From positions 1 through 36,319 of IMG/VR virus record IMGVR_UViG_3300028577_000090: a stretch of DNA of 36,319 nt, one strand, 5' to 3'. The position numbers and the translations under genes are program-made. Source of the DNA: a virus. Numbering within the stretch: the stretch's first letter is position 1; the number at the start of each line of letters is the position of its first letter. The notes beneath the pieces are model-generated. The model saw only the letters and a list, made by a program, of their open reading frames with translations, was not told the origin of the DNA and searched no databases. Shown here one piece after another: positions 6,961 to 26,778 of this stretch.

Positions 6961-7335
6961 GTGATCCGTCCCGCGGCACAGGACGAGCTAGGCTTCATCC
7001 GGGAGACCAGCTGCAAGGTGCGCAAGCCCCGCGAGCGGTCCTGGGCATCCTGGGAGGCGCAGCACGGCCCGCAGGTTGACCGCTGGCTGCGTGAGGGGGA
7101 GGCGACGGTCTACGCGGCAGAGGAGGCGCCAGAGATCGTCCTGGGCTTCCTGCTGGTGACTGACGGTGACGTGGTGCGGATGATCTACGTTAAGCGAGAC
7201 TTCCGGGGCGAGGGCATCGGCCTCGAGCTGCTGGGCCAGCTGAAGATGCCCCCCCGCCCCTGGCAGCCGAACGGCGTGTGGCGGCAGTGGGTGGCCTACC
7301 ACCGCCGGGTGATGGGCAACCTGGTGGCGGCGTGA
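6961..7335 (+). CDS. GNAT-like acetyltransferase domain protein
   Basis: A 124-aa protein starting at GTG 6961. It opens 'MIRPAAQDELGFIRET', typical of GNAT N-termini. The acetyl-CoA loop is visible as 'YVKRDFRGEGIGLELL' with R-G-E-G-I-G at about 82-87, preceded by a beta strand (IVLGFLLVTDGDVVRMI). It is shorter than usual GNAT enzymes after motif A. Small GNAT-like proteins beside phage terminases are common, but their substrates are unknown. Its stop overlaps the terminase GTG, indicating coupling with packaging genes. Confidence 0.72.
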   Translation: MIRPAAQDELGFIRETSCKVRKPRERSWASWEAQHGPQVDRWLREGEATVYAAEEAPEIVLGFLLVTDGDVVRMIYVKRDFRGEGIGLELLGQLKMPPRPWQPNGVWRQWVAYHRRVMGNLVAA

Positions 7336-8774: not shown

Positions 8775-8798
8775 TTACTGGCCAAGGTGACCACAAAT
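8774..8798. promoter_or_regulatory. 25-bp palindrome, copy 3
   Basis: It fills the whole gap between the terminase stop and the portal ATG. The core reads GGCCAAGGTGACC; the departure from consensus creates AAGGTG, a usable Shine-Dalgarno seven bases before ATG 8797. The site may serve as both operator and ribosome site. Confidence 0.7.
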
Positions 8799-11879: not shown

Positions 11880-12326
11880 ATGGCCACGGGCAAGGTGCCC
11901 GGGAAGAAGACCTTCGGCCCCCACAACTCGACGTGGAAGAAGGGCGTTGCCCCCACCGGGAAGCGCGTGGGGCCGAAGGTCACGAGCACGCGCCCGAAGA
12001 CTTTCACCGGATTTCGCGAGGCCATGCGCGCCGCCTTCGAGACGACGGGGCAGGACCCGAAGGGCGAGCGCACGCTGACCCAGGTGGTCCTCGGCAAGGC
12101 GTTCGACGACACCAACCCCGACCAGCTGAACGCCATCAGGTTCGCCGCGGCGTACGCCTACGGTCTGCCCAAGGCCGGCCTCGACGAGCAGACGATCGAG
12201 GCGCTGGGCAAGGAGATGGCGCAACGGATGTTTGAAGCGGCCATTGAGGAAGCCCGGAAACGCCGCATGGTCGAGGCAACCGAGGTCACTGCCACGCCGG
12301 CCATTACTGGTCAACCTGACCACTAA
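11880..12326 (+). CDS. DUF5681-like hypothetical protein
   Basis: A 148-aa protein. The basic, glycine-containing N-terminus (HNSTWKKGVAPTGKRVG) and the later 'FAAAYAYGLPKAGLD' segment resemble the DUF5681 pattern of phage proteins ('KKG.SGNP.GRPKG' ... 'YAYGKPP'). Members of that family sit near terminase and capsid genes and may bind DNA. The last residues (AITGQPDH) and the stop are encoded by palindrome copy 4, so the operator is part of the coding region. No Shine-Dalgarno is visible; translation is probably coupled to the scaffold gene ending five bases upstream. Confidence 0.65.
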   Translation: MATGKVPGKKTFGPHNSTWKKGVAPTGKRVGPKVTSTRPKTFTGFREAMRAAFETTGQDPKGERTLTQVVLGKAFDDTNPDQLNAIRFAAAYAYGLPKAGLDEQTIEALGKEMAQRMFEAAIEEARKRRMVEATEVTATPAITGQPDH

Positions 12327-12338: not shown

Positions 12339-12366
12339 TTGACGGGTCATTGGAGGCCTGTACATT
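12339..12366 (+). promoter_or_regulatory. Major capsid promoter
   Basis: TTGACG (12339-12344), 16-bp spacer, TACATT (12361-12366), followed by GG. The spacing, -10 sequence and distance from the palindrome match the promoter at 26155. Confidence 0.68.
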
Positions 12367-12372
12367 GGTAGT

Positions 12373-12463
12373 TGTCTCCCCGCTGTAAAGGCGAAACGGT
12401 CCCGTAATACGAAACCTCACGGGGTCAGCAGGGGTTCAACAACCTGTTGCGTGAGGTTTCCCC
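12373..12463 (+). ncRNA. Structured 5' leader RNA, copy A (major capsid)
   Basis: About 90 nt between the predicted start of transcription and the capsid ATG. AAACCTCACG (12412-12421) pairs perfectly with CGTGAGGTTT (12450-12459). This ten-base-pair stem contains the Shine-Dalgarno GAGG (12453-12456), seven bases before ATG 12464. Inside is TCAGCAGG and a small hairpin (CA, two-base bulge, GGTT/AACC, loop CAAC). A homologous leader with a different but still paired inner helix lies at 26189-26283. This points to a conserved RNA that controls or protects translation starts. The 5' end is predicted from the promoter. Confidence 0.72.
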
Positions 12464-13753
12464 ATGGCTGGACCTGGAGCTGCATTCAGCGCGCTTAACG
12501 ACGCGCTGTTGCTCAATTACGATCTGAAGTTCCGCGGGCGCGTTGGCTGGAGCAAGGGCGCGCTGGCCGCGATGATCCCGAAGGTGCGATGGTCGGGGCT
12601 CTACCCGGTCATCCCGATCCGCAACACCGCCTCGCCTGCCGTCTCCGCGACGTTCGCGAACGCGCAGACCATCGCGACCGGGACCACCGGCATCGTGCAG
12701 GTCGCGCAGTTCAAGCCGTCGTGGTACCGCAAGTTTGGCGTGGCGCAGATCGATTCGCTGCTGCTGGCCGCCGCCAGCGACGCGAAGGGGGCCGTCTACG
12801 ACGAGATGTGCGGCCAGATCGACGGCATCATGGACGGCACGGCGCACCAGTTCTCGATCGAGGTGTACCGCAACGGCTACGGCGCCATCGGTGTCATCGA
12901 CTCGACGACCACCATCGCGTCCACCCGCTGCATCCTGAAGAACCCCGAGGACAGCGTGCACTTCGTCCAGGGCGCGAAGATCGTCGCGGCCGCCACCGAC
13001 CACGCGGACCTTCTGCGCAGCTCGGGGGCCTCGATGGAGGTCGCCGGCATCGAGGATCCGGAGAAGGGGTACATTACCTTCACGGCGAACCTCAGCACCA
13101 CGCTGTCGGACATCGCCACGGGTGACTACCTGTTCTCGCTGGGCAACCGGCAGAACAGCGCCACCCCCACGCCCGTCTGCATGAACGGCATGGACGCGTG
13201 GTTCCCCGTCACGGTGCCCACCACCACGGACACCGCCTCGGGCGTGGACCGCAGCAAGAACGCGCTCTACCGCGGGACCATCATCGACGCCACCACGGCG
13301 CCGAAGTCCTCGCTGAACAAGGAAGACCTGATGCTCGAGGCCATCACGGCCAGCTCCCGCTACGGCGGCAGCCCCGAGAAGATGGTCTACTTCACGAACA
13401 ACACCAACTACAAGGAGGTGTTGCGCATCGGGTCGGCGAAGTTCCGGCCGAACACGGTCAAGGGCCCCTACGGCGTCAGCTTCCAGGGCATCAAGATCAT
13501 GACCGACGCGGGCGAGATTCCGGTGCAGCCGGATCCGTACTGCCCGGTGCAGCGCTCCTACCTGCTGGACCTGTCCACCGTGAAATTCTACGGCTGTGGC
13601 AGCGCCGAGGTGCCGCGCTTCATCGACGACGACGGCGTGGGCAAGGTCCTGCGCATGACGGACGCGGCGGCTGTGGAGTGCCGCGTCGGGTACTACGGCA
13701 CGATCGGCGTGAACAAGCCGATCGTCAACGTGGTGGTCCAGCACTCGACGTAA
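12464..13753 (+). CDS. Major capsid protein
   Basis: A 429-aa protein in the canonical position after the scaffold. It begins 'MAGPGAAFSALNDALLLNYD' and is rich in beta segments and Ala/Thr/Gly. It has a long helical stretch (about 93-120, FGVAQIDSLLLAAASDAKGA...) compatible with the spine helix of the HK97 fold, and a 'NNTNYKEVLRIGSAKFRPNT' segment near the P-domain. It ends in beta strands (KPIVNVVVQHST). It has its own promoter, a structured leader and a downstream terminator, as expected of the most abundant virion protein. The role is assigned by context and size; I cannot name a close relative. Confidence 0.83.
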   Translation: MAGPGAAFSALNDALLLNYDLKFRGRVGWSKGALAAMIPKVRWSGLYPVIPIRNTASPAVSATFANAQTIATGTTGIVQVAQFKPSWYRKFGVAQIDSLLLAAASDAKGAVYDEMCGQIDGIMDGTAHQFSIEVYRNGYGAIGVIDSTTTIASTRCILKNPEDSVHFVQGAKIVAAATDHADLLRSSGASMEVAGIEDPEKGYITFTANLSTTLSDIATGDYLFSLGNRQNSATPTPVCMNGMDAWFPVTVPTTTDTASGVDRSKNALYRGTIIDATTAPKSSLNKEDLMLEAITASSRYGGSPEKMVYFTNNTNYKEVLRIGSAKFRPNTVKGPYGVSFQGIKIMTDAGEIPVQPDPYCPVQRSYLLDLSTVKFYGCGSAEVPRFIDDDGVGKVLRMTDAAAVECRVGYYGTIGVNKPIVNVVVQHST

Positions 13754-13759
13754 TTCCTG

Positions 13760-13810
13760 GGGCGCTGAGCCGGGCGTTTCTTCCCTTTCCGCCCGGCTCG
13801 GCGCCCTTGG
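13760..13810 (+). terminator. Strong hairpin terminator after the capsid gene
   Basis: A 17-bp stem joins GGGCGCTGAGCCGGGCG (13760-13776) and CGCCCGGCTCGGCGCCC (13790-13806). There are 16 Watson-Crick pairs and one G-U, a 13-nt pyrimidine loop, and then TTGGTTCTT. It is likely a partial terminator that lowers expression of downstream genes relative to capsid; it may also shield the mRNA 3' end. Confidence 0.85.
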
Positions 13811-13831
13811 TTCTTCACCAGGGAGACCACC

Positions 13832-14236
13832 ATGAGCTTCATGCCAGCGGGATACGTCTGGAACCGGCGGAACGTCGCCTGGTTCATCCACACCATCACC
13901 ATCGGCGCGTCCGGGGCCATCTCGTCCCAGGACGCCGCCGCCGATTCGGGCGTGGTCGCGGCGAAGGCGTCGCAGGCCGGCCGGTATACGCTGACCTTCC
14001 CGGGCAAGGGCTTCCGGAAGTTCCAGGGCGCGTACACCATCCTCATCGGCGACGCGACCAATCAGTTCGGCGCTGTGTCTGTCGGGTTCGACAGCCTGTG
14101 CCGGGCCGAGCATATCGACGACGCCACCAACCCGCCGACCGTGATCGTGCAGTTCGTCAACAGCTCGACGAACTACACCGACGCGGATCTGCCGTCTGGC
14201 ACGGTCGTGAAGATCCACACGTGCGTGGAGTTCTGA
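13832..14236 (+). CDS. Putative capsid decoration/structural protein
   Basis: A 134-aa beta-rich protein with GGGAG before ATG 13832, directly behind the capsid terminator. Patterns such as 'FIHTITIGASGAISSQDA' and 'FQGAYTILIGDATNQFGAVSVGF' look like alternating strands of a small beta-sandwich. Position next to the major capsid gene and small size suit a decoration or head-fibre protein. No specific family recognised. Confidence 0.65.
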   Translation: MSFMPAGYVWNRRNVAWFIHTITIGASGAISSQDAAADSGVVAAKASQAGRYTLTFPGKGFRKFQGAYTILIGDATNQFGAVSVGFDSLCRAEHIDDATNPPTVIVQFVNSSTNYTDADLPSGTVVKIHTCVEF

Positions 14237-14239
14237 GCC

Positions 14240-14515
14240 ATGGCCGACTTCATCGACGGCATCGTGAAGCGGCGGGGGGGCGCGCCCGCTGACGACGGGG
14301 GCGACGCCGCGCCGGCGAAGGCCCCCGGCTACGGGGACGCCAAGAAGTCGGCCCTCGACGACCTGGCGCGCATCGTCGGCGTCATGAAGGCCGACCGGGG
14401 CGCGTTCGATGCGGCCATGACGGACTTCGTCGAGGCCTGCATGGAGGACGAAGAGAAGGAAACCCCCGCCGACGAGTCGGCCGAGGGCGACGACACCGAA
14501 ACCCCCGAGGAGTAA
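14240..14515 (+). CDS. Small acidic hypothetical protein
   Basis: A 91-aa protein, four bases after the previous gene. The N-terminus is MADFIDGIVKRRGG. A Pro/Ala/Gly linker, one helical segment (ALDDLARIVGVMKADRGAF) and a very acidic tail (about 70-91, Glu/Asp/Thr) follow. I do not recognise it. Position between decoration and adaptor genes suggests a virion or assembly role. Confidence 0.6.
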   Translation: MADFIDGIVKRRGGAPADDGGDAAPAKAPGYGDAKKSALDDLARIVGVMKADRGAFDAAMTDFVEACMEDEEKETPADESAEGDDTETPEE

Positions 14516-14518
14516 CCC

Positions 14519-15166
14519 GTGGGCGTTCCGCTCGCACAGCTGGTCATCGGGGCCCGCACCGCCGCATCCATGCAGCAGGGCGGGCCCTGGGAGCCGTCCG
14601 AGTGGGACGCGGCGGTGAACAACGCCGTGCGCGCGTTCTGGGTGGACGTCACGGCCATCAACAACACGCTGGCGGTGACGATCGCCACCATCACGATCAC
14701 CAACACGGCGACGCCCTACGTGGCGTTGCCGGCCGACTTCATGAACGTCCTGAGCGTGTGGGAGCGCCCGGGCACCGCCAGCCGGCGCGAGCTGCGCAAG
14801 AGCGGCGACCGCTCGGCCTACGGACAGCGCACCTACCGCATCAGCGGCAAGCTGCTGTACATCGACCCGCTGGAAGCGAGCGTCGACAGCTACGAGCTGG
14901 ATTACAACCCCCTCCCCACGCTGCTGACCGCCTCGGTGGACCTGGACGGCGAGCTGGTGCAGCACCGCGAGTACTTCGAGCTGCACACCGCCATCGCGGC
15001 CCTGACCTCGGAGCAGTCCCCCACGGCTGACATCGCCCCGCGCTTCGCCGTGTGCCAGCAGCGCGCCCTTGCGTGGGCGGCCCGCCAGCGATCGAGCGAG
15101 CCCAGCCGGCCCCGTGACGTGCGGCCTCGTGGTGGACGGGGACGCCTGCCCGGGCGCTGGCCGTGA
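14519..15166 (+). CDS. Head-tail adaptor (gp4/gp6-like)
   Basis: A 215-aa protein from GTG 14519 with GAGGAG upstream. The N-terminal 'EWDAAVNNAVRAFW.DV' helix and the following 'YVALPADFMNVLSVW' beta segment, then 'YRISGKLLYIDP' and a helix rich in Ala and Gln, match the helical-bundle-plus-beta layout of podovirus head completion or adaptor proteins. These bind below the portal. The C-terminal 25 residues are Arg/Pro-rich, and the stop overlaps the next GTG. The role is inferred from pattern and gene order. Confidence 0.7.
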   Translation: MGVPLAQLVIGARTAASMQQGGPWEPSEWDAAVNNAVRAFWVDVTAINNTLAVTIATITITNTATPYVALPADFMNVLSVWERPGTASRRELRKSGDRSAYGQRTYRISGKLLYIDPLEASVDSYELDYNPLPTLLTASVDLDGELVQHREYFELHTAIAALTSEQSPTADIAPRFAVCQQRALAWAARQRSSEPSRPRDVRPRGGRGRLPGRWP

Positions 15167-16311
15167 AGCTCCCGTACAAGCGCCCCAGCGATCCGGAGCT
15201 GGCGCAGCTATACGACGCCATCAACGAGGTAGCGCAGGCCCAGGTCACCACGTCCGAGGCCCCGGGGCTCATCACCGCCGTCCCGACGTTCGCCGAGCTG
15301 CGCAAGACGCCGGGCGACGTCACGGGCGCCGCGGGCCCGCCCGCCATCACCGTCAGCGGCATCAAGGCCCCCGGGGACAACGGCGCGGCCATGACGTTCG
15401 CGTGGAAGCCCGGGGACGCCCGGGACGACAACAACGGCGACAACAGCACAGGTGACGGCATCGTGGCCGTGGTGGGCATTGACCGCGGGCGGTGGACGCG
15501 CGCGCAGGCGGTGGCCTCGGTGCAGACGCTCACCGCGGGCACCGGCATCAGCCTGACCGGCCCGGCTGCCACCCCTACGATCAGCAACACGGGGGTCATC
15601 AGCGCCACCGCCGGCACCGGCCTGACGAACAGCGGGACGGCCACGGCGCCCGTGTTCAACGTGACGGCCGCGCCCGGGAAGACGCTCATTCGCCGCTCGG
15701 TGATCACCGGCAATACGACGCTCGGGAAGGCGACCGGCACCACGTTCGCGACCTGGCGAATGGTCGGCGGCGGCGGGGGCGGCGGCGGGTGCGGCACCAC
15801 GGGCCTGGCGGGCGGCGGCGGCTCCGCTGGCGGCTACGCGGAGGGCTCCACGGCCACCATCCCCTCGGCCAGCTGGTCTATCGCCATCGGCGCGGCAGGC
15901 ACGGCCGGCGTCTCGGGTGCCAGCCAGACGGACGGCGGCGCCGGCGGGAACACCACCATCAGCAACGGCACGACGACCACCACGGCCTTCGGCGGCCCTG
16001 GCGGCGTCGCCTCCACCTCCACCACACAGGGTGTCTCTGTTGCTGGCGGGGCGGCGCCCGCCGTGTCGACGAATGGCGACGTCAACAGCAGCGGCGAGCC
16101 CGGCGGCAGGGGAATCAACCTCACCACCACCGCCTGTGTCACTGGACAGGGCGGCTCCGGTCCCTTCGGCGCGGGCGGGCGCTCCAAGAGCGTGGGCAGC
16201 GCCGGTGACACGGGCATCGGCTACGGCGCGGGCGGCTCGGGAGCCTCCGTCTCGTCGTCCAACGGCGGCGCCGGCACGGCCGGGATCCTCATCCTGGAGG
16301 AGTGGGGATGA
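15163..16311 (+). CDS. Glycine-rich tail fibre/adhesin
   Basis: A 382-aa protein from GTG 15163, coupled to the adaptor. Residues 1-125 are globular, starting 'MKLPYKRPSDPELAQLYDAI'. Residues 125-200 hold Thr/Gly-rich repeats ('TAGTGISLTGPAATPTISNT', 'SATAGTGLTNSGTATAPVFN') typical of fibre shafts. From residue 202 onward the sequence is Gly-rich, opening with eight consecutive Gly, and ends 'GTAGILILEEWG'. This matches glycine-rich C-terminal adhesin domains of phage tail fibres, which form polyglycine-II sandwiches and bind cell-surface receptors. Host range is probably set partly here. Confidence 0.82.
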   Translation: MKLPYKRPSDPELAQLYDAINEVAQAQVTTSEAPGLITAVPTFAELRKTPGDVTGAAGPPAITVSGIKAPGDNGAAMTFAWKPGDARDDNNGDNSTGDGIVAVVGIDRGRWTRAQAVASVQTLTAGTGISLTGPAATPTISNTGVISATAGTGLTNSGTATAPVFNVTAAPGKTLIRRSVITGNTTLGKATGTTFATWRMVGGGGGGGGCGTTGLAGGGGSAGGYAEGSTATIPSASWSIAIGAAGTAGVSGASQTDGGAGGNTTISNGTTTTTAFGGPGGVASTSTTQGVSVAGGAAPAVSTNGDVNSSGEPGGRGINLTTTACVTGQGGSGPFGAGGRSKSVGSAGDTGIGYGAGGSGASVSSSNGGAGTAGILILEEWG

Positions 16312-16315
16312 TCGG

Positions 16316-16340
16316 ATTACTGGTCAACTTGACCACTATC
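16316..16340. promoter_or_regulatory. 25-bp palindrome, copy 5
   Basis: Perfect core GGTCAACTTGACC with left flank ATTACT and right flank ACTATC, five bases after the fibre stop codon. A different kind of promoter, with GTAGCGT boxes, follows at 16343. Confidence 0.82.
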
Positions 16341-16342
16341 TC

Positions 16343-16371
16343 TTGTAGCGTCTCGGTCTGTAGCGTATCAT
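16343..16371 (+). promoter_or_regulatory. Tail-module promoter with GTAGCGT boxes
   Basis: TTGTAG (16343-16348), 17-bp spacer, TATCAT (16366-16371). GTAGCGT occurs at 16345-16351 and 16360-16366, and the inverted copy ACGCTAC at 16380-16386. The downstream pair could form an operator of two inverted half-sites, or an RNA hairpin just before the AAGGAG ribosome site. Confidence 0.65.
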
Positions 16372-16398
16372 CGAATCACACGCTACAAGGAGACGCCC

Positions 16399-19300
16399 AT
16401 GACACGCGGAGACATCGACCGACCGATCGAGAACATCCTGATTGCCCTGGCCATCGCGGCCGTATTCGTGGCCGCCATGCTCGGCTGCGCGCCACCGAAT
16501 ACCCCGGCGACCGCCGCCACTGCTGGCTCCGCATCGGTGGCCGATGTTTCGGAGGAGGTGCCTGACATGGCCCTTCAGAAGCACCCTATTTCCTGGCCCC
16601 TGACGGGCGGCCTGGACACGAAGAAGGCCCCGCTGGTGGTGCAGCCGGGCAGCTTCCTGCGCCTGGACAACGTCGTGCAGGAGCGCCAGGGCGAGTGGCG
16701 GCGGCGCAACGGCTGGACGCAGGTATCCGCGGACACCATGCCCGAGACGGCGCCCTACACGGTGGGGGCGCTCGGGGACGCTGGGTTCTTCCTGAACGGA
16801 CAGGGCGGCCTGTCGGTCTACTCGCCGTCGCAGGCCTCGTCACGATGGTCGGGGCAGTCGGTGGTACAGCCGCCCCAGGACGTGAAGCGCACGCCGGGCG
16901 CGTCCTCGTCGTCGCTGCAGACGGCCCTGGCCACCAACGGCACCTTGGCAGCGGTGTGGACGCAGGGCCCGAGCACCGACGCGATCTCCGTCATCGACCT
17001 GACGACGAACACCGTCACGCTCACCTTCAGCGTCACCAGCGCGGGCGCCAACGTCGTGCGCGGCGCCGCCACGGCCAGCAAGCTGTGCTTCTTCACGCCG
17101 AGCTCGGGCAGCATGCTGGCATACGTGGTCGACGTGGCCACCGGTGCGCTCACGGGCCCGACCACCATCGCCACGGGACTGTGGACGACCTCCACCCCCA
17201 CGGGGCATGACGCGCGCTGGTACGGCGGGAACACGATCACCATCGTGGCTCAGGCGTCCAGCGGCGGCGATACGCGCTTCATGGAGTGGAACCCCTCCAC
17301 GGCTTCGATGGTCGTCAACGTCGCGCTGGGGACCGCAAGCAACTACGCCCTGTCGCTACTGGACGAGCCCGACGGCTCGGGAACGAGGTTCGTGGCGGCA
17401 TCCTCGACCACGCAGATCAAGGTGCTCCGCGTGTCCTCGGCCGGTTCTGTGCTCACGACGGACATCGCCGAGGGGATCGCCGCCTTTGCAGCTACCGGGG
17501 TGGCCTTCAACAACGGGGTGGACTGGAGCCTGATCTACGCGAATACCAGCGGCGGCAACCTGCGGATGAACAGCAAGAGCGGCGGGATCCTCGGGACGGC
17601 CACCGATTTCCAGCTGGCCTCCGTCTGGACCGGCTCCACGGCCACGATCGATTCGAACGCCTGGCGCGATCCGTCGGTTTACGGCTGGTCCTTCCTGCTG
17701 GGCCTGCATTCGCGGTCTGCCTCCGACCCGCAAGACTCGTGGGTGGAGATGCTGATGCCCCCCGCGGTGAACGGCATCGGGCAGCCGATCGCCGTGATGG
17801 AGTCGCTGGCGGCGGGAGGCATGCCGGCGCTGGCGGTGGGAAACCAGTTCCAGGTGGTCCGCCCATCGGCGCGCCACTTCATCATGGGCCTGCCGGTTCA
17901 GGTCATCTACGAGGACAACGCCGGCACCATCGTGCGCCACTACTCGGTGGACGTCTTCCAGAAGACGTATCTGACCAGCGCGGACGACGCCTCGGACAAG
18001 ATGGGGCGCCCGGTGCCGTACCGCTCAACGGCGTTCGTCCCCGGCGGCCAGCTGTCGTTCTACGACGGCGGCACGCTGACCCCCCTGGGTACCCGCTATC
18101 CGCCCCGCGCGCCGACCGTCACGCCGAGCACGGCGGCGGGCAACCTGACCCCGGCAAGCCAGTACGAATACGTGGCCGTGGTCGAGCAGATCGACGCGGA
18201 CGGCAACATGTGGCGCTCTCCCCCTTCGATCCCCGTCCTGGTGACCATGGGAGCCACCGACAACACCAACACGGTGGTCTTCAAGTCCTGGGAGCTGGAG
18301 ACGCTGCGCCAGTACCGGCTGGTGCTCTACCGCTCGAGCGCGGACGGAAGTTCGCCCCGCCGCTGGTACTCGCAGCTGTTCACCGCTGGCGCCAACATCA
18401 CCGTCACCGACACGTTCTCGGATGCCCTGGTGAACGCGGGCGAGGTACTTTACACGGAGGGCGAGGCGCCGAACATCATCACGCCGCCGGCCTACCTGGC
18501 GTGGCTGGCCGATGATCGGCTTTGGACCGTGAATCCCGAGTACCCGACGGAAGTCAGCTACTCGAAGAACCTGCGCCCGAACCGGCTGCCTGAGTTCACC
18601 GCCGAGAACCTGATCGACCAGGACGATCAGTACGGCGGCGTGACCGGCGGCGGCGTCCTGGACGACAAGATCGTCCTGTTCAAGCGCAACGCCGTGTACT
18701 TCCTGCAGGGCGGTGGCTTCACGGACTCGGGGAGCGGTGACAACTACGCCGCCACCATCCTATCGAGCGACGTAGGCGCTCTCCCGGGCTCCCCGGTGGT
18801 GCAGGCCGCCGACATGCTCTATTTCGTGAGCGAGCGCGGCATCATGAAGTTCGACAAGCAGGGGAACGTGACCTGGATCGGCGAGCCGGTGGACCAGTAC
18901 CTGCACCAGCCGCTCGTTCAGACGCCCGAAACCGTCTATGACGGCTGCTTTGTGCCCAGCGCCAATGAAGTGCGCTTCCTGACCACCAATTACGTCCTGG
19001 TCCACAACCTGACGTTCGATTACTGGGTGCGTTGGACGTTGAGCGGCTTCCGGCGGTGCCTGGTGGTGGGCGGGCAGATGGTCATGTTCCGCAACGACGG
19101 GACCGTGTGGCGCGAGGGCGACCAGACGCAGACCACCGACCAGGGGACGGCCTTCACCGGCGTGATTCGCTCGCCCTGGATGCGGCCGGCGCCTGGGATC
19201 CAGGGCTCACCCCCCACCAACACCTCGACGACGGGCCAGCGGGCCATGCGGCTCTACGAGGGGCGGATCGTCTACACCCGCACCAGCGGCGGCGGCCCGG

Positions 19301-19557
19301 CGGCGCTCACGGGGCGGCTCTACGCCAACAACGACGACAACCAGGTGCAGGAGTTCACCGGGCAGAGCATCGACGGCCTGACGTTGGCTGGCGCCGCGTC
19401 AATGAAGCCGCTCGCAAGCATCCAGAAATGCACGTCGTTCTCGGCAGAACTGGTACTCCCGAGTGGCGATGTTAGCGTGAGAGTTGATGGGTTTGCCGCT
19501 GTCATTGGTCTGCGCGACGGGGCTCAGGCTGTCGATCCAGGGAGCCGCTACAAATAG
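16399..19557 (+). CDS. Large tail/DNA-stabilisation protein with lipoprotein-like extension
   Basis: A 1052-aa open frame with two good starts. ATG 16399 (AAGGAG) adds 56 residues containing a hydrophobic span (13-29) that ends in MLGC at Cys30, like a lipobox. Internal ATG 16567 follows GGAGGAGG and starts MALQKHPISWPLTGGLDTKK, the opening of podovirus tail proteins of the 'GGLDTK.AP.VV.PG..L.LDNVV' type. These close the portal and form the tail nozzle (P22 gp10 / T7 gp12-like position). The body is beta-strand repeats, consistent with a propeller. The virion form is probably 996 aa from 16567. A membrane-targeted long form would be unusual. Confidence 0.8.
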   Translation: MTRGDIDRPIENILIALAIAAVFVAAMLGCAPPNTPATAATAGSASVADVSEEVPDMALQKHPISWPLTGGLDTKKAPLVVQPGSFLRLDNVVQERQGEWRRRNGWTQVSADTMPETAPYTVGALGDAGFFLNGQGGLSVYSPSQASSRWSGQSVVQPPQDVKRTPGASSSSLQTALATNGTLAAVWTQGPSTDAISVIDLTTNTVTLTFSVTSAGANVVRGAATASKLCFFTPSSGSMLAYVVDVATGALTGPTTIATGLWTTSTPTGHDARWYGGNTITIVAQASSGGDTRFMEWNPSTASMVVNVALGTASNYALSLLDEPDGSGTRFVAASSTTQIKVLRVSSAGSVLTTDIAEGIAAFAATGVAFNNGVDWSLIYANTSGGNLRMNSKSGGILGTATDFQLASVWTGSTATIDSNAWRDPSVYGWSFLLGLHSRSASDPQDSWVEMLMPPAVNGIGQPIAVMESLAAGGMPALAVGNQFQVVRPSARHFIMGLPVQVIYEDNAGTIVRHYSVDVFQKTYLTSADDASDKMGRPVPYRSTAFVPGGQLSFYDGGTLTPLGTRYPPRAPTVTPSTAAGNLTPASQYEYVAVVEQIDADGNMWRSPPSIPVLVTMGATDNTNTVVFKSWELETLRQYRLVLYRSSADGSSPRRWYSQLFTAGANITVTDTFSDALVNAGEVLYTEGEAPNIITPPAYLAWLADDRLWTVNPEYPTEVSYSKNLRPNRLPEFTAENLIDQDDQYGGVTGGGVLDDKIVLFKRNAVYFLQGGGFTDSGSGDNYAATILSSDVGALPGSPVVQAADMLYFVSERGIMKFDKQGNVTWIGEPVDQYLHQPLVQTPETVYDGCFVPSANEVRFLTTNYVLVHNLTFDYWVRWTLSGFRRCLVVGGQMVMFRNDGTVWREGDQTQTTDQGTAFTGVIRSPWMRPAPGIQGSPPTNTSTTGQRAMRLYEGRIVYTRTSGGGPAALTGRLYANNDDNQVQEFTGQSIDGLTLAGAASMKPLASIQKCTSFSAELVLPSGDVSVRVDGFAAVIGLRDGAQAVDPGSRYK

Positions 19558-19577
19558 CGGTCAACGTGACCACTAAT
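19553..19577. promoter_or_regulatory. 25-bp palindrome, copy 6
   Basis: Core GGTCAACGTGACC. It overlaps the TAG stop of the large tail gene and the first two bases of ATG 19576, filling the gap between the genes. Just upstream is a CCGCTA/TAGCGG inverted repeat (19545-19560). Confidence 0.75.
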
Positions 19578-21294
19578 GGCTGACGGCACCGTATACGCGA
19601 CGCAATCTCAGGCATCTGGGACGCAGACGTTCGCGACGCAATATCAAGACGTCGTTGATCCGTCGACGGGCAAACAGGTCACGATCAAACTGCTAGCGAA
19701 CGGCTCACCGGATACGTCCGACCCGGCCACCGCGTCTTACGTGCAGAACCAGGCCCTGGTAAATCAAGGGACGTCTGCGAATGGCGATCTGGGAGGTGGC
19801 ACGGGGGGCGGATCGGGGGCGCCCCCGACGAGTCAGGGATCGGCGGGAGGCTCGTCTGGCGGCAACCCGCTCGACCCGGCCACGGCGCTGAAGAACCTGC
19901 AGGCGTTCGATCCGAATGCTCCCCTACCCGACCAGTTCAAGATCGACCCCGGCACCGTCACGCCGGGGCAGGCAACCCCAGGTGTCGCAGCCACCGCGCC
20001 GGTGATCACCGCGCCCGGGGCGGTCTCGGCGCCGAGTCTCGACTTCAACACGGGGCTCACGGCGCCGCAGATCACCGCCACGCCCACCGCGGGGACGGTC
20101 CCGGTGGTCAGCGCGCCGCAGCTGGGCCCGGCGCCCACGGTGAGCGCGGGAAGCGTAGGGGGCGGCTCGGTCTCCGCGCAGAACATCGACCCGAGCGCCG
20201 CCACCGCCACCCCGGTAGCGGACGTGAGCGCCCAGGGTGTGGGCCGGGACGCTGAGACACAGGGCCTCGACTACCTGAAGGGCGTTGCCGAGGGGACGAC
20301 GACCACGGCAGCCGACAAGCTGCTGCAGAAGGGGGTAGACGAGAACGTGGGCGCGGCCTACGGGCTCGCGGCCTCGCTGCAGGGCCGGAACCCCGGACAG
20401 GCGCTGCGCCAAGGGCTCACGAGCGCGCGCACCGCCGTAGCGAAGTCGTCCGCCGATGTCGCCGCGCAGAAGGCGCAGGAGCAGCAGACGGCAATGCAGC
20501 AGTACGCCACGCTGGGAACCTCCATCGCTGGCCAGGATCTACAGGCCGCGATGTCGAATCAGTCGAAGGATCTGCAGCTCAGCGTCACCCAGATGCAGGC
20601 GAAGATCGACGTGCTGAAGGCGAACCAGGCCTCCCAGCTCAGCGCCGGTGAAGCGACGCTGGCCAGCCAGACGCAGGCCCAGATCGCCACGCTGCAGTCG
20701 CAGACGAACGTCGCGATCGCGCAGCTGCAGACCTCAACGGCCCGGGACATCGCGAACCAGACGGCGCAGCTCGACGCCTCGAAGGCGAACGCCGCCAACA
20801 CGATCGCCGTCAACATCGCCACCCTGCAGGCGCAGGTCCAGGTCGAGGAGGCCAACCTGCAGGCGGCGACGTCGACGCAGAACACCCAGGCCCAGATCGA
20901 TGCGCAGAAGGCGATCACGCAGTACCAGGGCCAGCTCGATCTCCTGAAGCAACAACAGGACCAGCTCTACGACGCCGCCAAGACCAACGCGGCCAACGCG
21001 ACGCAGACCAACATCACGAACGCCAACAACGCCACGACGGTGGCCACATCGAACGCCGCCAACACGACGCAGGCGAGCATCGCGCAGCAGCAGCTTGCCG
21101 AGAAGGCGAAGGCGGATGAGAACACCATGGACGCCCAGCTCGCCCAGCTCGGGCTCTCCTCTCTCGTGGCGCAGCTGAACGCCGCCATCGAGAACGCCAA
21201 GACGGACCAGCAGCGCCAGGCGGCTGAGGACTCATTCTGGGCGAGCATCATCGGCACCGGAGCGAAAGCGGGGACGGCAATCGCCGCACTGTAA
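19576..21294 (+). CDS. Ejection/internal virion protein 1
   Basis: A 572-aa protein. The first 230 residues are low-complexity Gly/Ser/Thr/Pro/Ala. Residues about 260-540 form a very long Ala/Gln-rich coiled coil (AQKAQEQQTAMQQYATLG..., QTQAQIATLQSQTNVAIAQL...). The end is a short hydrophobic helix (IIGTGAKAGTAIAAL). This layout, and its position after the tail nozzle gene and before two similar proteins, fits podovirus ejection proteins. Those are stored in the head and injected to build a channel across the envelope. No enzymatic domain seen. No ribosome site other than the palindrome precedes the ATG. Confidence 0.7.
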   Translation: MADGTVYATQSQASGTQTFATQYQDVVDPSTGKQVTIKLLANGSPDTSDPATASYVQNQALVNQGTSANGDLGGGTGGGSGAPPTSQGSAGGSSGGNPLDPATALKNLQAFDPNAPLPDQFKIDPGTVTPGQATPGVAATAPVITAPGAVSAPSLDFNTGLTAPQITATPTAGTVPVVSAPQLGPAPTVSAGSVGGGSVSAQNIDPSAATATPVADVSAQGVGRDAETQGLDYLKGVAEGTTTTAADKLLQKGVDENVGAAYGLAASLQGRNPGQALRQGLTSARTAVAKSSADVAAQKAQEQQTAMQQYATLGTSIAGQDLQAAMSNQSKDLQLSVTQMQAKIDVLKANQASQLSAGEATLASQTQAQIATLQSQTNVAIAQLQTSTARDIANQTAQLDASKANAANTIAVNIATLQAQVQVEEANLQAATSTQNTQAQIDAQKAITQYQGQLDLLKQQQDQLYDAAKTNAANATQTNITNANNATTVATSNAANTTQASIAQQQLAEKAKADENTMDAQLAQLGLSSLVAQLNAAIENAKTDQQRQAAEDSFWASIIGTGAKAGTAIAAL

Positions 21295-22784
21295 TGGCCG
21301 ACGACTCACAGCCCAGCACCATCGTCGTCAACCCCCAGGCCGCCTGGGAGCAGTCGGTCACCGCACCGACGAGCAGCGACACCACGAAGGCCCTGTCCGC
21401 GCCCCAGGTGGCCGAGCAGGCGTCGAGCGCCGCGCTCACGAAGGACGAGATCGCCGGCACCGCGCCCAAGGCGGCCTACGACACGGGCGTGGCGCAGCTC
21501 CAGGCGGACGCCGCGAAGAACAACGAGAAGATCGCCGGCGCCACGCTGCAGGAGAAGAGCGCCGTCGACGAAAAGCAGATGGCGAACATCGCGGCGAAGG
21601 CCGAGGTGCTGCGCCAGGCACAGGAGGCGATCAAGGCGACGCCGGCCCCCGCCCTCTTCGCGGACCGCCAGGGCTGGCAGAAAGTGATCGGTGCCATCGG
21701 GATCGCGATCGCGGGCATCGGCGACGCGAAGGAAGCGCGCGACGCCTCGATCTTGCACCGCGAGCGCGGGCCGTCCGCCGTCGACAGCATCATCAGCGCC
21801 GACCTCGAGCGCCAGAAGGCGAACATCAAGCGCCTGACGGACGTCCAGATCATGGCGAAGGAGGGCGTGAAGGACGCCATCCAGGCCCGGGAACTGGCGC
21901 TGGCGAAGGTGGACATGAAGGGGGCCGCCCTGCTGAACCTCGCCGCCCAGCACGCTGAATCGCTGTTGAAGGCGAAGGGCGTGGAGGCGCCCGCCATCCA
22001 GCAAAACGAGCTGGTGCTGAAGCTGCGCCGGGATGAAGAGACGCGGAAGGCGGCGGCGGTAGCCGGGCTGACCAGCGAGCACACCGCCGCGAGCTCCAAG
22101 ACGGAGACCACGAACCGCATCAGCGATCCGACGCCGAGCGCCCCCACCGGCCGGGTGGCCATCGTGAAGAACCCCGACGGCTCGGACGCGGGGCTGGCGC
22201 CGGCCGCCGCCGCGAACACCGTGAACGAAGAGACGGCGAAGCGAATCACCGTGGAGCGAACGGGGCGCGAGTACCTGGACTTCGTGAAGGCGCACCCCCA
22301 TGTCATGCCCGGCACCGCCGAGTACCACAAGGCCGAGGCCCTTCACGCCGAGATGGTGACGGCGCTGGGATCCGTCTCCGCGCTGGGCAAGAGCGACGAG
22401 ACGAACGCCCTCGAGGCGAAGCGCCTGGGGCCATCGGGCACCGGCGTGTGGAGCACCCAGCCGGCCCTCATCTCGAAGATCCTGGACACCAACGCCAAGG
22501 CCGGTAAGACGCGCATCAAGCTCACCGCCGGCACGGCCACGGAGAAAGACGGGAGCCCGAAGGAGATGCCGGCCGCGCCCGCCCCCACCCCTCAGACCGC
22601 CGCGCAGGGCCAGACGGCGCCGATGGTGCCGCCCGCCGATCAGGCCGCCGCCGCGGCGAAGAAGCCCGCGCGCGCGCCGAACAGCCCGTGGACGCCCGAG
22701 ATGCGAGACGCGGCGAAGTGGATCACCGCGCACCCCGGTGACCCGCGCATCCCCGAGATCCGCAAGAGGCTGGGCCTGCCATGA
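21294..22784 (+). CDS. Ejection/internal virion protein 2
   Basis: A 496-aa protein whose ATG overlaps the previous TAA. It is helical and Ala/Lys/Glu-rich, with a hydrophobic glycine segment at about 139-150 (IGAIGIAIAGIGDAK) that could insert in membranes. It has a C-terminal Pro/Ala linker and ends with 'WTPEMRDAAKWITAHPGDPRIPEIRKRLGLP'-like basic sequence. As the middle gene of three it is likely part of the injected channel. No close family recognised. Confidence 0.68.
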   Translation: MADDSQPSTIVVNPQAAWEQSVTAPTSSDTTKALSAPQVAEQASSAALTKDEIAGTAPKAAYDTGVAQLQADAAKNNEKIAGATLQEKSAVDEKQMANIAAKAEVLRQAQEAIKATPAPALFADRQGWQKVIGAIGIAIAGIGDAKEARDASILHRERGPSAVDSIISADLERQKANIKRLTDVQIMAKEGVKDAIQARELALAKVDMKGAALLNLAAQHAESLLKAKGVEAPAIQQNELVLKLRRDEETRKAAAVAGLTSEHTAASSKTETTNRISDPTPSAPTGRVAIVKNPDGSDAGLAPAAAANTVNEETAKRITVERTGREYLDFVKAHPHVMPGTAEYHKAEALHAEMVTALGSVSALGKSDETNALEAKRLGPSGTGVWSTQPALISKILDTNAKAGKTRIKLTAGTATEKDGSPKEMPAAPAPTPQTAAQGQTAPMVPPADQAAAAAKKPARAPNSPWTPEMRDAAKWITAHPGDPRIPEIRKRLGLP

Positions 22785-24799
22785 CCTTCGACCCCGACAA
22801 GTTCATCGCCGAGTACGACTCCCAGCCCGCCGCCGAAGGCACGCCGCCACTGCTGGAGCGTCCGGTCACGCCGCTGGAGCCGGGAAACATCAACCTCGAC
22901 ACCCGCCCTCGCGTGCGCAATCCGGACGGCTCGATCAGCACCGTCCGTTCGATGTCCAGCGAGCAGGACGGCAAGGAAGTCCTGGTGCCCACTGTCAGCG
23001 ACGACGGGCGGATCATGTCCGATGACGAGGCGTGGGCGCACTATGAGAAGACGGGCAAGCACCTGGGGAAGTTTCGGACGCCCGAAGAGGCGGACAAGTT
23101 CGCGAAGAGCCTGCACGAGGATGAGGCCCGCAAGCTCACCATGGGATTGCCAGACTACGCGAACGACCCCATTCCGCCCGCGCCCCCTCACGACGAGGTG
23201 AAGCCGGGGCAGGCCGCCCAGGTCCGCACCGCGATCGCAGATGCGATGGCCAAGCCTGGCTTCGCCGAGCTGCCCCCCGCCCAGAAGCAAAACGCCATCA
23301 TCGAGGCCGTCCACGCCGTCACGCGCGCCGCTGGCGCCGCCGTGCCGCTGGGTCACGTCGTGGGTGCGGGCCTCGAAACGCTGCCCGTGGTGGGCAACGG
23401 GCACACGTTCCACGAGAACCTGGACGCGCTCGACCAGGGCGCCGCCGACGCGCGCGCGGCGCATCCCGTGGCGAGCACCATCGGCACCACGCTGGGCCTG
23501 GGCGCGACCGTTGCCGCCTCGGGAGGCTTCATGGCTCCCGGCTCGACGGCGCCCGTCGCGGGCCCTTCCCTGGCGCGCTTGGTGGCCCCGGTGGGCGAGA
23601 ACGCGGCGATTGGCGGCGTGCAGAACGCGACCGAGACGGCGGCGCGCGGCGGGGACGCGGGCGACGTCCTACGCGCGGGCGGCGATGGCGCGCTGGCCGG
23701 CGCGGCGCTGGGCGCGGCTGTGCCTGCCGCTGGCGCGCTGGCGGGGAAGACGCTAGTGGGCGCGGTGAACCGCTCAGACAACCGCATGCTGAAGGAGGTG
23801 GGCGACGGTGCCCCCAAGGTGCAGCGGTTCAAGCTGAACGAGCGCGGCGACGACGTGGTGGACCTCATCCGCCGCACGCCCGAGCTCGAGAAGACGTACA
23901 AGAAGCCGTCGGAGTTCGCGGGCGCGGCGGTGCGGCTGCTGGGGAAGAATGGCGGCGAGCTGGACAGCATCTACGAGGCGGCCGACAAGGGCGGAAAGAT
24001 CGGCGCAGATCAGGCCGTGAAGGCCGTTCAGTCCGTGCAGGCGAACGTCGGGAGCACGCTGGCGGGCGAAGAGGTGGCGGCGGCCATGAAGCCGACCCTC
24101 GACAAGCTACAGCGCCGCGCCGACAAGATGCAGCCCATCGGCGGATCCGAGCTGCGCGCAGAGGTGACGCGCCTGCAGAACATCGCCAACGCCAAGGGCC
24201 CTACTGCGCCCCCCACCGAGGTTCAGAAGGCAGCCGGCGCCGCGGCGAACGCGCTCCGTGACGTGCTGGAGAAGCACGTGGAGACGAACCTGCCCGGCCA
24301 GTTGCAACGCGTGCAGCAGCTCAACGGCGACCAGACGCTGCTTTCTCGCATCAAGGGCGCCGCCGAGTACAAGGCGATGAACCGGCCGAACGAGAACACG
24401 TCCCGGCTGGCCGAGATCGGCAAGGGCGTGGTCACCCACGGCGCGCACACCGCGGGCCTGGGCGAGGCGGTGCACGGGGCCATGTCTGGCAGCGTCCCCG
24501 AGATCGCCGCGGGTGTGGCTACCGCCGTCGCACCGCACGTGATTCCACCGGTGGCGCGCGCTGCTGACGAGGCGCTGGCGAAGATGGGCCGCGCCGCCGG
24601 ACAGTCGCGCACAGCGCCCGTGGGGGGGCTCATCGAGCGCATCTCCCAGGCAAAGAACCCGGGCCAGGTGCACAGCGAGCTGATGTCGCACATTTTCGGC
24701 AACGCCCAGTCCCCCGAAGACGTTCCCGAGCCCGAGTCGTTCGGGCCCCGCGAGACCAACAACAGCGAACCCGACTCGCTACTGGCGCCGAAGAAATGA
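22781..24799 (+). CDS. Ejection/internal virion protein 3
   Basis: A 672-aa protein overlapping the previous gene by four bases. Residues about 42-120 carry a recognisable conserved phage module: 'NPDGSISTVRSMS', 'DGKEVLVPTVSDDGRIMSDD', 'AWAHYEKTGKHLGKF' and 'EEADKFAKSLH'. This module occurs in internal virion proteins and in structural proteins with muralytic partners. A long Gly/Ala-rich segment (about 185-330) has membrane-like stretches, followed by helical repeats. The role is probably DNA ejection across the envelope. I see no lytic transglycosylase catalytic motif. Confidence 0.75.
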   Translation: MTFDPDKFIAEYDSQPAAEGTPPLLERPVTPLEPGNINLDTRPRVRNPDGSISTVRSMSSEQDGKEVLVPTVSDDGRIMSDDEAWAHYEKTGKHLGKFRTPEEADKFAKSLHEDEARKLTMGLPDYANDPIPPAPPHDEVKPGQAAQVRTAIADAMAKPGFAELPPAQKQNAIIEAVHAVTRAAGAAVPLGHVVGAGLETLPVVGNGHTFHENLDALDQGAADARAAHPVASTIGTTLGLGATVAASGGFMAPGSTAPVAGPSLARLVAPVGENAAIGGVQNATETAARGGDAGDVLRAGGDGALAGAALGAAVPAAGALAGKTLVGAVNRSDNRMLKEVGDGAPKVQRFKLNERGDDVVDLIRRTPELEKTYKKPSEFAGAAVRLLGKNGGELDSIYEAADKGGKIGADQAVKAVQSVQANVGSTLAGEEVAAAMKPTLDKLQRRADKMQPIGGSELRAEVTRLQNIANAKGPTAPPTEVQKAAGAAANALRDVLEKHVETNLPGQLQRVQQLNGDQTLLSRIKGAAEYKAMNRPNENTSRLAEIGKGVVTHGAHTAGLGEAVHGAMSGSVPEIAAGVATAVAPHVIPPVARAADEALAKMGRAAGQSRTAPVGGLIERISQAKNPGQVHSELMSHIFGNAQSPEDVPEPESFGPRETNNSEPDSLLAPKK

Positions 24800-24808
24800 C
24801 GCTGGGGG

Positions 24809-24833
24809 ATTTGTGGTCAAGTTGACCGGATAT
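24809..24833. promoter_or_regulatory. 25-bp palindrome, copy 7 (inverted orientation)
   Basis: Perfect core GGTCAAGTTGACC. The flanks read ATTTGT on the left and GGATAT on the right, so relative to the other copies it is reversed. It lies between two genes, just before ATG 24840. Confidence 0.82.
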
Positions 24834-24839
24834 TCCTGG

Positions 24840-25385
24840 ATGAAGCGGGACGCCCCGACCGGGGAGCCGCCCCCTGCGCCACCCGTTGACGCGGACGCGA
24901 TGCGCAAGCGCCTGAACGACGCCGGGGCGATCGTGTCGCCCGCGATGACCTACCTCAAGGCCCAGATGCCGCCCCAAATCACCGACCGGTGGGGGCAGCC
25001 GTTGCCGCTGAGCGTGGACAAGCAAGAGCGCCTCGACCGCCTGGCGGCCGTCCTGGCGCAGCCGCTCGAGCGGGGGCGCGCGCTGCTGGTGTCCGGGCAG
25101 CTCGACACCATCGAGGCGGACGCGATCCGCAACGGGTGGCCCCAGGTGTACGACCACCTGAAGGAGCAGGCGATCGCCGAGATGGCCGAGGCGGGCCCGC
25201 CGCTCCCCCCGTGGAGCGAGGGCGTGCTGGGCATCCTGTTCGGACGGGACGCCGCGCTCGTCTACACCGACGGGTCCGCCGACGCGGCGAAGCCCACCGG
25301 CAATAAGCAGTTCAACGGCAAGGCGCCTCTGGCGTCGCCGGCCGATCTCTCTTCTGAACCCGACCTCCGACCACGTAGGAGCTGA
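24840..25385 (+). CDS. Hypothetical virion-associated protein
   Basis: A 181-aa protein. I choose ATG 24840; GTG 24813 is in frame but would translate the palindrome. The sequence starts MKRDAPTGEPPPAPPVDADA, then a helical and hydrophobic body (AVLAQPLERGRALLVSGQLD) and a polar tail. No family recognised. It lies between the ejection genes and the Ig-like structural gene, so a virion role is likely. Confidence 0.62.
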   Translation: MKRDAPTGEPPPAPPVDADAMRKRLNDAGAIVSPAMTYLKAQMPPQITDRWGQPLPLSVDKQERLDRLAAVLAQPLERGRALLVSGQLDTIEADAIRNGWPQVYDHLKEQAIAEMAEAGPPLPPWSEGVLGILFGRDAALVYTDGSADAAKPTGNKQFNGKAPLASPADLSSEPDLRPRRS

Positions 25386-25388
25386 CCA

Positions 25389-26123
25389 ATGGACAACCGA
25401 GTCAACCGATTCCGATTCCAGTTCTCGACGCCGAGCTTCACGCCGGTGTCGGGTGCCATCTCGGGGACCACGCCCAAGGTGTCGAGCGCCATCACGGTGA
25501 AGGGGGTGGAGTCGGTCGCCATCGCCCTGGCGACCACCAGCACGGCGAACGGCCTGTGGACGATCCAGGTCAGCAACGACGAGAGCGCCACGAAGGTGTG
25601 GACGGAATCGGCGAGCTTCCCGGGGCAGCCCACCTACCCCACGGGCGCGGCCAGCTCGGGGACGCCGGTGATCCCCACCTGGGGATACAACTTCATGCAG
25701 ATCACGTTCACCCCCTCGGCCGGCGCGGGCAACGCCACGGCCACGGTGAGCGGCAAAGTGCAGTCCGCGCCCATCGACGTCTGCCAGAACGAGACGGGGT
25801 CGCTTCTCCTGGTCGCGAATGCCACCGACACGCTGGCGGGGACCTGGCTCCCCGAGGTGTCCAACGACTGGTCGGGGATGCTCCTGAACCCGGCGGGGCG
25901 GAACCAGGTGAACAAGCTGGTGATCGCTGATGGCTCGTGGGGGACGTACCTCGTGAACCCCGCGCTGGCGGCGAAGGTGGCGAGTACCCTGCAGGCCCAG
26001 ACGTCGGACCTCGGGATCAACACCACCGGATCCCCCGGGACGATGCCCTACGGGGCCTTCCGCCTGGCGTTCACTCCCACCGCCGGCTCGGGGACCGTCA
26101 CCGCCACGGGGATCTTCAAATAA
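25389..26123 (+). CDS. Tandem-duplicated Ig-like structural protein
   Basis: A 244-aa beta-rich protein behind TAGGAG and ATG 25389. It contains two related halves. Residues about 35-135 include 'NGLWTIQVSNDES' and end 'YNFMQITFTPSAGAGNATAT'. Residues about 140-244 include 'AGTWLPEVSNDWS' and end 'YGAFRLAFTPTAGSGTVTAT'. The shared W....VSND and FTP.AG.G..TAT marks point to internal duplication of one beta-sandwich domain. Such domains decorate capsids or tails and can bind surface carbohydrate. Precise role unknown. Confidence 0.72.
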   Translation: MDNRVNRFRFQFSTPSFTPVSGAISGTTPKVSSAITVKGVESVAIALATTSTANGLWTIQVSNDESATKVWTESASFPGQPTYPTGAASSGTPVIPTWGYNFMQITFTPSAGAGNATATVSGKVQSAPIDVCQNETGSLLLVANATDTLAGTWLPEVSNDWSGMLLNPAGRNQVNKLVIADGSWGTYLVNPALAAKVASTLQAQTSDLGINTTGSPGTMPYGAFRLAFTPTAGSGTVTATGIFK

Positions 26124-26143
26124 CGGCCAACGTGGCCGGTAAT
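26119..26143. promoter_or_regulatory. 25-bp palindrome, copy 8 (compensatory)
   Basis: Core GGCCAACGTGGCC: both arms carry the same T-to-C/A-to-G change relative to GGTCAACTTGACC, so symmetry is kept. It overlaps the stop of the Ig-like gene and ends 11 bp before the -35 at 26155. Confidence 0.8.
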
Positions 26144-26154
26144 CCGGCGAACGT

Positions 26155-26182
26155 TTGTCCGTTCCAGCCGCAGTGATACATT
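26155..26182 (+). promoter_or_regulatory. Structural-gene promoter, twin of the capsid promoter
   Basis: TTGTCC (26155-26160), 16-bp spacer, TACATT (26177-26182), then GG. Spacer length, -10 and distance to the palindrome equal those at 12339. Confidence 0.65.
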
Positions 26183-26188
26183 GGACCT

Positions 26189-26283
26189 TGTCCCGCTGAA
26201 TTGCGAAACGCGCCGAAGACGAAACCTCACGGCGATCAGCAGGGTGTTGTGGTCACAACCCTTTTCTGTCGTGAGGTTACGCA
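26189..26283 (+). ncRNA. Structured 5' leader RNA, copy B
   Basis: AACCTCACG (26223-26231) pairs with CGTGAGGTT (26270-26278), enclosing the Shine-Dalgarno GAGG (26273-26276) seven bases before ATG 26284. Inside, GATCAGCAGGG is shared with copy A. The inner hairpin is AGGG/CCCT, a two-base bulge, then TTGT/ACAA with loop GGTC; copy A has GGTT/AACC there, so pairing is conserved while sequence is not. CGAAAC motifs upstream are also shared. The 5' end is predicted. Confidence 0.72.
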
Positions 26284-26778
26284 ATGGCAACGCGAGTTTT
26301 CACCCTGTCGGGACAGTTCACCGTGGCCAACCAGGCGGTCACGCTGGCGTTCATCAACCCGGCGGCGGCGCCGAACTTTGGCATCGAGATCATGCAGGTC
26401 GACGTGTCGCAGTCGGGCACGGCCACGAGCGCCCAGCAGCGTATCCAGCTCGTCACGCAGGTCACCGCGTTTCCGACGCTGACCAGCGCCACCCCGCAGA
26501 AGATGGAACTGGCTGACCCGAACGCCAGCATCATCACGGGCGGCACGGCCGGCGCGGCTGGCACGTCTGGCGTGAACGCATCGGGGGAAGGCGCGGGCAC
26601 CAAGACGGTGCGTTACGAGTCGGACTTCAACAACCTCAACGGCTTCCTGTGGTGCCCTCCCGAGGTGGGACGCATCAAGCTGCCGGCGGGGTTGGCCTCG
26701 GGCTTCGGCGTGTTCTTGCCTGCCGCCCCGGGAACCCTGGCCGGGTGGGCCGTCTCCGTGATGTTCCGCGAGTACTAA
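26284..26778 (+). CDS. Beta-rich structural protein under capsid-type control
   Basis: A 164-aa protein starting MATRVFTLSGQFTVANQAVT. It is Ala/Thr/Gly-rich with alternating strands ('FGIEIMQVDVSQSGTATSAQ', 'RIQLVTQVTAFPTL') and a Gly/Thr loop in the middle, ending 'GWAVSVMFREY'. It shares its operator, promoter spacing and leader RNA with the major capsid gene. It is therefore likely made in large, coordinated amounts, as a decoration or fibre protein would be. No family recognised. Confidence 0.7.
   Translation: MATRVFTLSGQFTVANQAVTLAFINPAAAPNFGIEIMQVDVSQSGTATSAQQRIQLVTQVTAFPTLTSATPQKMELADPNASIITGGTAGAAGTSGVNASGEGAGTKTVRYESDFNNLNGFLWCPPEVGRIKLPAGLASGFGVFLPAAPGTLAGWAVSVMFREY

Follow-up and report, generated by a model that had tools for sequence, protein, structure and literature searches.

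A putative translation-controlling leader RNA upstream of the major capsid gene in a group of tailed phages

Background

The level of a phage capsid protein is usually ascribed to strong late transcription and to a strong, open ribosome site. The locus described here raises the question of how the message for a major capsid protein (MCP) is translated when its Shine-Dalgarno sequence (SD) is predicted to lie within a stable RNA helix, and of what a copy of the same leader might do in front of a second gene. A lid of this kind, conserved on the capsid ribosome site across a phage group, would imply a translational timing decision for the shell protein, and the second copy offers a natural way to ask whether the cassette by itself is enough to transfer control. 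The window, by which we mean the whole stretch of DNA analysed, is an IMG/VR virus record of 36,319 bases, and our analysis is sequence-based throughout. We conclude that the leader is probably a cis-acting RNA that controls the initiation of translation on the MCP mRNA.

Results and discussion

The phage, its head genes and its relatives

The window contains a run of head genes that leads to the MCP gene and a stem-loop behind it:

7278-8774, terminase gene, the first in the head-gene run
8797-10752, portal gene, following the terminase gene
10781-11875, probable scaffold gene, 364 residues, so labelled from its position only
11880-12326, between the probable scaffold gene and the MCP gene, a gene for a protein of 148 residues
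12464..13753, plus strand, MCP gene, 429 residues, phrog_9953 major head protein
13759..13807, plus strand, strong GC-rich stem-loop directly 3' of the MCP gene, probably a terminator

The stem-loop makes a dedicated one-gene MCP transcript likely. The MCP matches the Pfam family SU10_MCP weakly, just below the cut-off, and an SU10-type adaptor is encoded downstream of it. Kuravirus SU10, representing the nearest named capsid family, shares the order of head genes and has a weakly similar MCP profile, but differs in having 41 nt between the scaffolding and MCP genes, no leader and a partly accessible SD. Since the terminase, portal and MCP of the window have no relatives among 50,697 phage records, the group to which this phage belongs appears to be undescribed. 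MCPs 70-80% identical to that of the window are encoded on seven IMG/VR contigs, three of which are near-identical; with the two copies of the window these provide seven distinct close leaders. G004, a contig of 37,249 bases that was reached through relatives of the second gene's protein, encodes an MCP that is 38% identical and brings the total to eight distinct leaders in all the collections searched.

Two leaders with a buried ribosome site

The elements upstream of the two genes are the following:

12339..12366, plus strand, sigma-70-like promoter of the MCP leader (TTGACG, 16 nt, TACATT), which passes a generic promoter scan
12373..12463, plus strand, MCP leader RNA, conserved in L001-L006 and L055, with covariance-model matches
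12392..12397, plus strand, first CGAAAC motif of the MCP leader, invariant in the close clade and absent in G004
12411..12421, plus strand, 5' arm of the MCP SD hairpin, GAAACCTCACG
12427..12449, plus strand, inner hairpin of the MCP leader, CAGCAGG/CCTGTTG
12450..12460, plus strand, 3' arm of the MCP SD hairpin, CGTGAGGTTTC, with the SD GAGG at 12453-12456
26155..26182, plus strand, promoter of the second leader (TTGTCC, 16 nt, TACATT), with a weaker -35 element, identified by homology
26189..26283, plus strand, second copy of the leader, homologous to the MCP leader and matched by the covariance model
26204..26209, plus strand, first CGAAAC motif of the second copy
26223..26231, plus strand, 5' arm of the second SD hairpin, AACCTCACG
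26246..26259, plus strand, inner hairpin of the second leader, GTTGT/ACAAC
26270..26278, plus strand, 3' arm of the second SD hairpin, CGTGAGGTT, with the SD GAGG at 26273-26276
26284..26778, plus strand, second-leader gene, encoding a 164-residue beta-rich protein with a putative virion role

An initial annotation of the window had reported two 5' regions with CGAAAC motifs and a stem enclosing the SD, and both are seen at 12373-12463 and 26189-26283; they precede genes whose proteins, as it had also stated, show no similarity on comparison. Over ~68 nt comprising the promoter -10 element and the leader, the two copies share 77% identity. On the plus strand of the window CGAAACCTCACG occurs exactly twice (12410 and 26220), the arm CGTGAGGTT is found in exact form at 12450 and 26270, in both cases with GAGG within it and an ATG just downstream, and there is no third match to the leader sequence in the whole 36,319-base record. 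The leaders of the close relatives follow the order promoter, CGCUGAA or a variant, CGAAAC, second CGAAAC, hairpin, GAGGUU and AUG, while the TCAGCAGG element varies, with UCGGCGGAG, CGGCAGGGA and other forms in relatives. The 9-bp AACCTCACG stem of the annotation is found in both window copies, but the relatives keep only GAAACC/GGUUUC of it.

Predicted RNA folds bury the SD in both leaders, with hairpin z-scores of -3.9 and -3.4 (with 1000 shuffles, -4.3 for the MCP leader and -3.3 for the second). The MCP hairpin (12411-12460) combines an outer stem of 11 bp with an inner stem of 7 bp, and the second (26223-26278) has 9 bp plus further pairs; the 3' end of the hairpin comes within a few nt of the AUG and the SD is part of the 3' arm. 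This hairpin is the minimum free energy fold in 7/7 distinct close leaders, its mean energy being -26.8 kcal/mol as against -17.0 kcal/mol (sd 1.1) in shuffles (0/1000). Energies run from about -22 to -29 kcal/mol, and the short hairpin of G004 stands at -19. The SD in these predicted folds is thus placed inside a stable mRNA helix, as in SD-sequestering leader hairpins, although in the L002 group and L055 it is the GG that is paired and the GA of the SD that is left in an internal loop. By SD accessibility the MCP is the most occluded among 24 genes of the window, and values below 0.1 are found in only 5% of 80 start sites across the clade. The antisense strand folds just as stably as the sense strand, and wobble pairs are therefore no proof that the element acts as RNA.

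A shared promoter had been proposed for the two leaders, and its conserved placement holds: TTGACN-16-TACNNT precedes the MCP leader in all seven close contigs, by eye at an equal distance (the spacer of L003 is 17 nt), but a generic scan passes only 12339-12366. Judging from this promoter, the MCP transcript is predicted to start just before or at 12373, ~40 nt ahead of the hairpin. One alternative to control of the full leader is a timing lock of the T4 gene e/soc type, whereby the hairpin silences early read-through transcripts and the late transcript, starting inside the hairpin, escapes. Among the roles of SD-sequestering hairpins in tailed phages this one is the best documented (PMC3014915), and the MCP gene does come after a same-strand gene run, across a 137-nt gap. 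However, the sole conserved promoter in the compared leaders is upstream of the entire hairpin, no conserved promoter was seen between the arms, and the late promoter within the 5' arm that typifies gene e was not found; we regard a lock of this type as unlikely.

Conservation of the helix by compensatory change

An SD hairpin is present upstream of the MCP gene in 8/8 related contigs found, including G004, where the region reads CGAAACACUCU...GGAGUGUUUCCCAUG and the stem has been rewritten, as GAAACACUC/GAGUGUUUC versus GAAACCU/AGGUUUC, with the SD still paired. Within the close clade GAAACC/GGUUUC forms an invariant core, the inner pairs are variable and compensatory replacement is seen further in. 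The initial annotation had pointed to covariation of the inner helix between the two window copies; this covariation is present but is weak evidence alone, and it is the eight distinct leaders that carry the claim. We compared native hairpin halves with halves exchanged between lineages, by permutation. Native pairing was better at 0.0006 of 5,040 permutations for seven lineages (0.0012 without the invariant core), at 0.00007 of 40,320 permutations for the eight lineages with G004, and at 0.0004 for the MCP leaders only; common ancestry of both halves could inflate these values somewhat, the control with the 3' half reversed having given 0.095. Arm-by-arm pair counts show 82% paired cells and five pairs with two-sided change, much of it from G004, and covariation in the stem is 0.188, whereas column shuffles give 0.083 (0/500) and slid controls no more than 0.064. 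Further copies with compensatory changes, on which the annotation had staked its proposal, are therefore at hand in the eight leaders, the swap test and the pair counts, and the helix is conserved through compensatory change in relatives in the manner of an SD-sequestering leader.

RNAalifold on a MAFFT alignment reports zero compensatory pairs since the core does not vary and the inner arms are misaligned, a discrepancy that is cleared up by the swap test together with the arm alignment. A covariance model built from eight leader copies of the close clade matched, in the contigs examined, only copies already known, and missed G004; the RNAalifold core alone is hence too weak a model, and G004, which the close-clade model did not find, represents an independent case. 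An unguided scan of four genomes for SD-covering helices of at least 9 bp recovered the MCP start in 4/4, along with the second gene of the window; its few extras were in G001, two of them short stems close to structural genes, of which one overlaps a terminator. In G001 (L057, minus strand, 2224 and 7271) short stems occur near the SD of the gene after the MCP and of a portal-like gene, and the stem of the post-MCP gene overlaps the terminator (GACGGG..CCCGTCGTTTT) at the end of the MCP unit. Leader DNA patterns in 2.9 million viral contigs and GTDB genomes returned the MCP clade plus chance matches only, and the SD hairpin element is, on these searches, restricted to one clade. Short ORFs in the leaders are not conserved by eye, and coupling to an upstream ORF was rejected.

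A conserved helix might also serve the message in other ways. Were it an element of mRNA stability or expression, the structured 5' end would protect the capsid message and burial of the SD would be a side effect, tolerable because ribosomes load fast during transcription. The MCP is needed in large amounts, and the stem-loop after its gene would give a one-gene unit, but the compensated helix sits exactly on the SD rather than at the 5' terminus, a position that a protective stem does not need, and this role appears distinctly unlikely. Fainter still is the case for a ligand-binding riboswitch or pseudoknot, in which the 5' end, CUCCCGCUGA, would pair with UCAGCAGGG or its equivalents and an aptamer would control access to the SD. 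By eye the strands are complementary in every close leader, and in 7/7 the 5' end has its best target at the same place; the swap test, however, shows no coevolution (0.55 for the P1+P2 halves), so that the coevolving helices of a T4 gene 32-like pseudoknot were not found, the complementarity of the 5' end to its target is not above shuffles (0.13), and G004 has neither the first CGAAAC nor the 5' strand. Nor is there a match to a described RNA family: Rfam 15 gave zero matches at gathering and chance matches only at E up to 5, in agreement with the earlier remark that no named phage RNA is known to have such a form. The pseudoknot or switch model (5' end with UCAGCAGGG, a CCG/CGG helix and the TCAGCAGG element) was rejected on the strength of the swap test and shuffles. 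That the inverted repeat is a protein-binding DNA operator overlapping the SD incidentally is hardly credible: sense and antisense fold equally and the promoter is adjacent, but the loop between the arms ranges from 20 to 43 nt, which argues for RNA pairing over a DNA operator, the inner arm of G004 is replaced with complementarity kept, and in every case the repeat extends to the start codon and takes in the SD. The most likely reading of these sequences is a cis-acting translational lock on the MCP mRNA.

Comparison with known phage leaders

Among the T4 genes with which this leader can be compared, soc encodes a capsid protein. 1) SD-sequestering leader hairpins are known in T4 e, soc, 49 and I-TevI, and in Aeh1 mobE (PMC3014915), and share with the present one a tailed-phage setting and an RNA helix that holds the SD and/or start codon. 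Late transcripts of gene e lack the structure, their promoter being situated within its 5' strand (PMC3014915), whereas the present hairpin lies entirely downstream of the conserved promoter and belongs to the major capsid gene. 2) T4 genes 32 and 43 have autogenous translational operators that diverge between related phages, gene 32 relying on cooperative binding and on a pseudoknot that lies 67 nt upstream, gene 43 on a short specific hairpin (PMC3014915). The MCP leader is likewise predicted to be an RNA structure acting on the translation of one phage gene, but unlike in these operators the SD itself is within the stem, and the pseudoknot tested was unsupported. 3) The split ribosome site of T4 gene 25 has a stem between SD and AUG that helps translation (PMC3014915); like ours, this RNA stem is conserved between related phages where a structural gene begins, but in our case the stem contains the SD. 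The principle of SD-sequestering phage leaders is known, and it is the MCP target and the promoter arrangement that differ from T4 gene e. In a limited literature search, covering few subscription journals, no leader of this kind was found described for the MCP of a tailed phage.

A possible mode of action

A dedicated MCP transcript, starting ~40 nt before the hairpin, would carry the hairpin whole. Folded mRNA would be expected to load ribosomes poorly, making MCP synthesis conditional; it speaks against this reading that a lid of -27 kcal/mol on the mRNA of the most abundant protein needs an opening step, of which the sequence shows no sign. The likeliest use would be feedback or timing, with young or opener-bound MCP mRNA being translated and folded MCP mRNA being silent, or kept in the folded state by a protein specific for the conserved CGAAAC-containing 5' arm, a role for which the capsid protein or an assembly protein would be a natural candidate. 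The CGAAAC arm is constant where its partner differs (GGUUACG in the second copy of the window, GGUUUCC in the others), which suggests recognition beyond pairing and is the main ground on which a bound protein is favoured. We offer tentatively the fuller proposal of an MCP feedback operator, whose CGAAAC arm would be read by the capsid or an assembly protein and which could move as a cassette, with its promoter, to a second virion gene. In the phage of the window, the duplicated cassette would put the second gene under the same control. The leader is small and portable, and could be used for reporter work.

The second leader and its gene

The idea of a conserved cis-acting RNA on two virion genes stands for the SD-occluding MCP hairpin, but a conserved regulon of two virion genes is not supported, the second copy having been seen in this phage only. 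The family of the second gene's protein is represented on 18 IMG/VR contigs of various phages, and besides G002 the leader is absent upstream of the relatives in all 16 that could be read (0/16), one contig starting too close to the gene. G002 has an MCP-type promoter one gene upstream of the second-gene homologue, followed by an ordinary short leader, and the promoter is hence separable from the leader. Leaderless promoter copies, TTGACN-16-TACAGTCGGC, occur at G002:33159 (L060:15160) and L058:8592, one of them preceding the second-gene operon in G002. The second leader is most simply explained as a duplication of the phage's own MCP promoter-plus-leader cassette, an origin favoured by the 77% identity over the promoter -10 element and leader.

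PHROG, Pfam and PDB searches gave no function for the second protein. An AF2 model from 18 sequences (pLDDT 87) predicts a beta-sandwich resembling uncharacterised phage proteins; it was used in place of a first model (pLDDT 50), which was discarded. On the basis of this model a virion role for the protein is plausible. Members of the family (26284-26778, L114-L131) are ~160-residue beta-sandwich proteins widespread in tailed phages; those scanned are without a Pfam or PHROG match, and the closest predicted structure is A0A6J5LRZ4.

Other features of the window

The window also encodes a ParB-like protein (1645-2865) and an Mgm101/Rad52-like annealing protein (33733-34683; Pfam PF06420, E 3.5e-45), whose gene adjoins that of a PD-(D/E)XK nuclease (34826-35656). 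A dispersed palindrome, TGGTCAACNTGACCACTA, lies at gene boundaries (5897, 8779, 12308, 16321, 19558, 24811 and 33469) and has 12 matches in the window at up to 3 mismatches, versus 0.02 expected; these are possibly operator or parS-like sites. Sites like AATTAACGGTCRCNNYGACCGTTAATT occur in the relatives, and in G002 and G004 they are also found just upstream of the MCP promoter.
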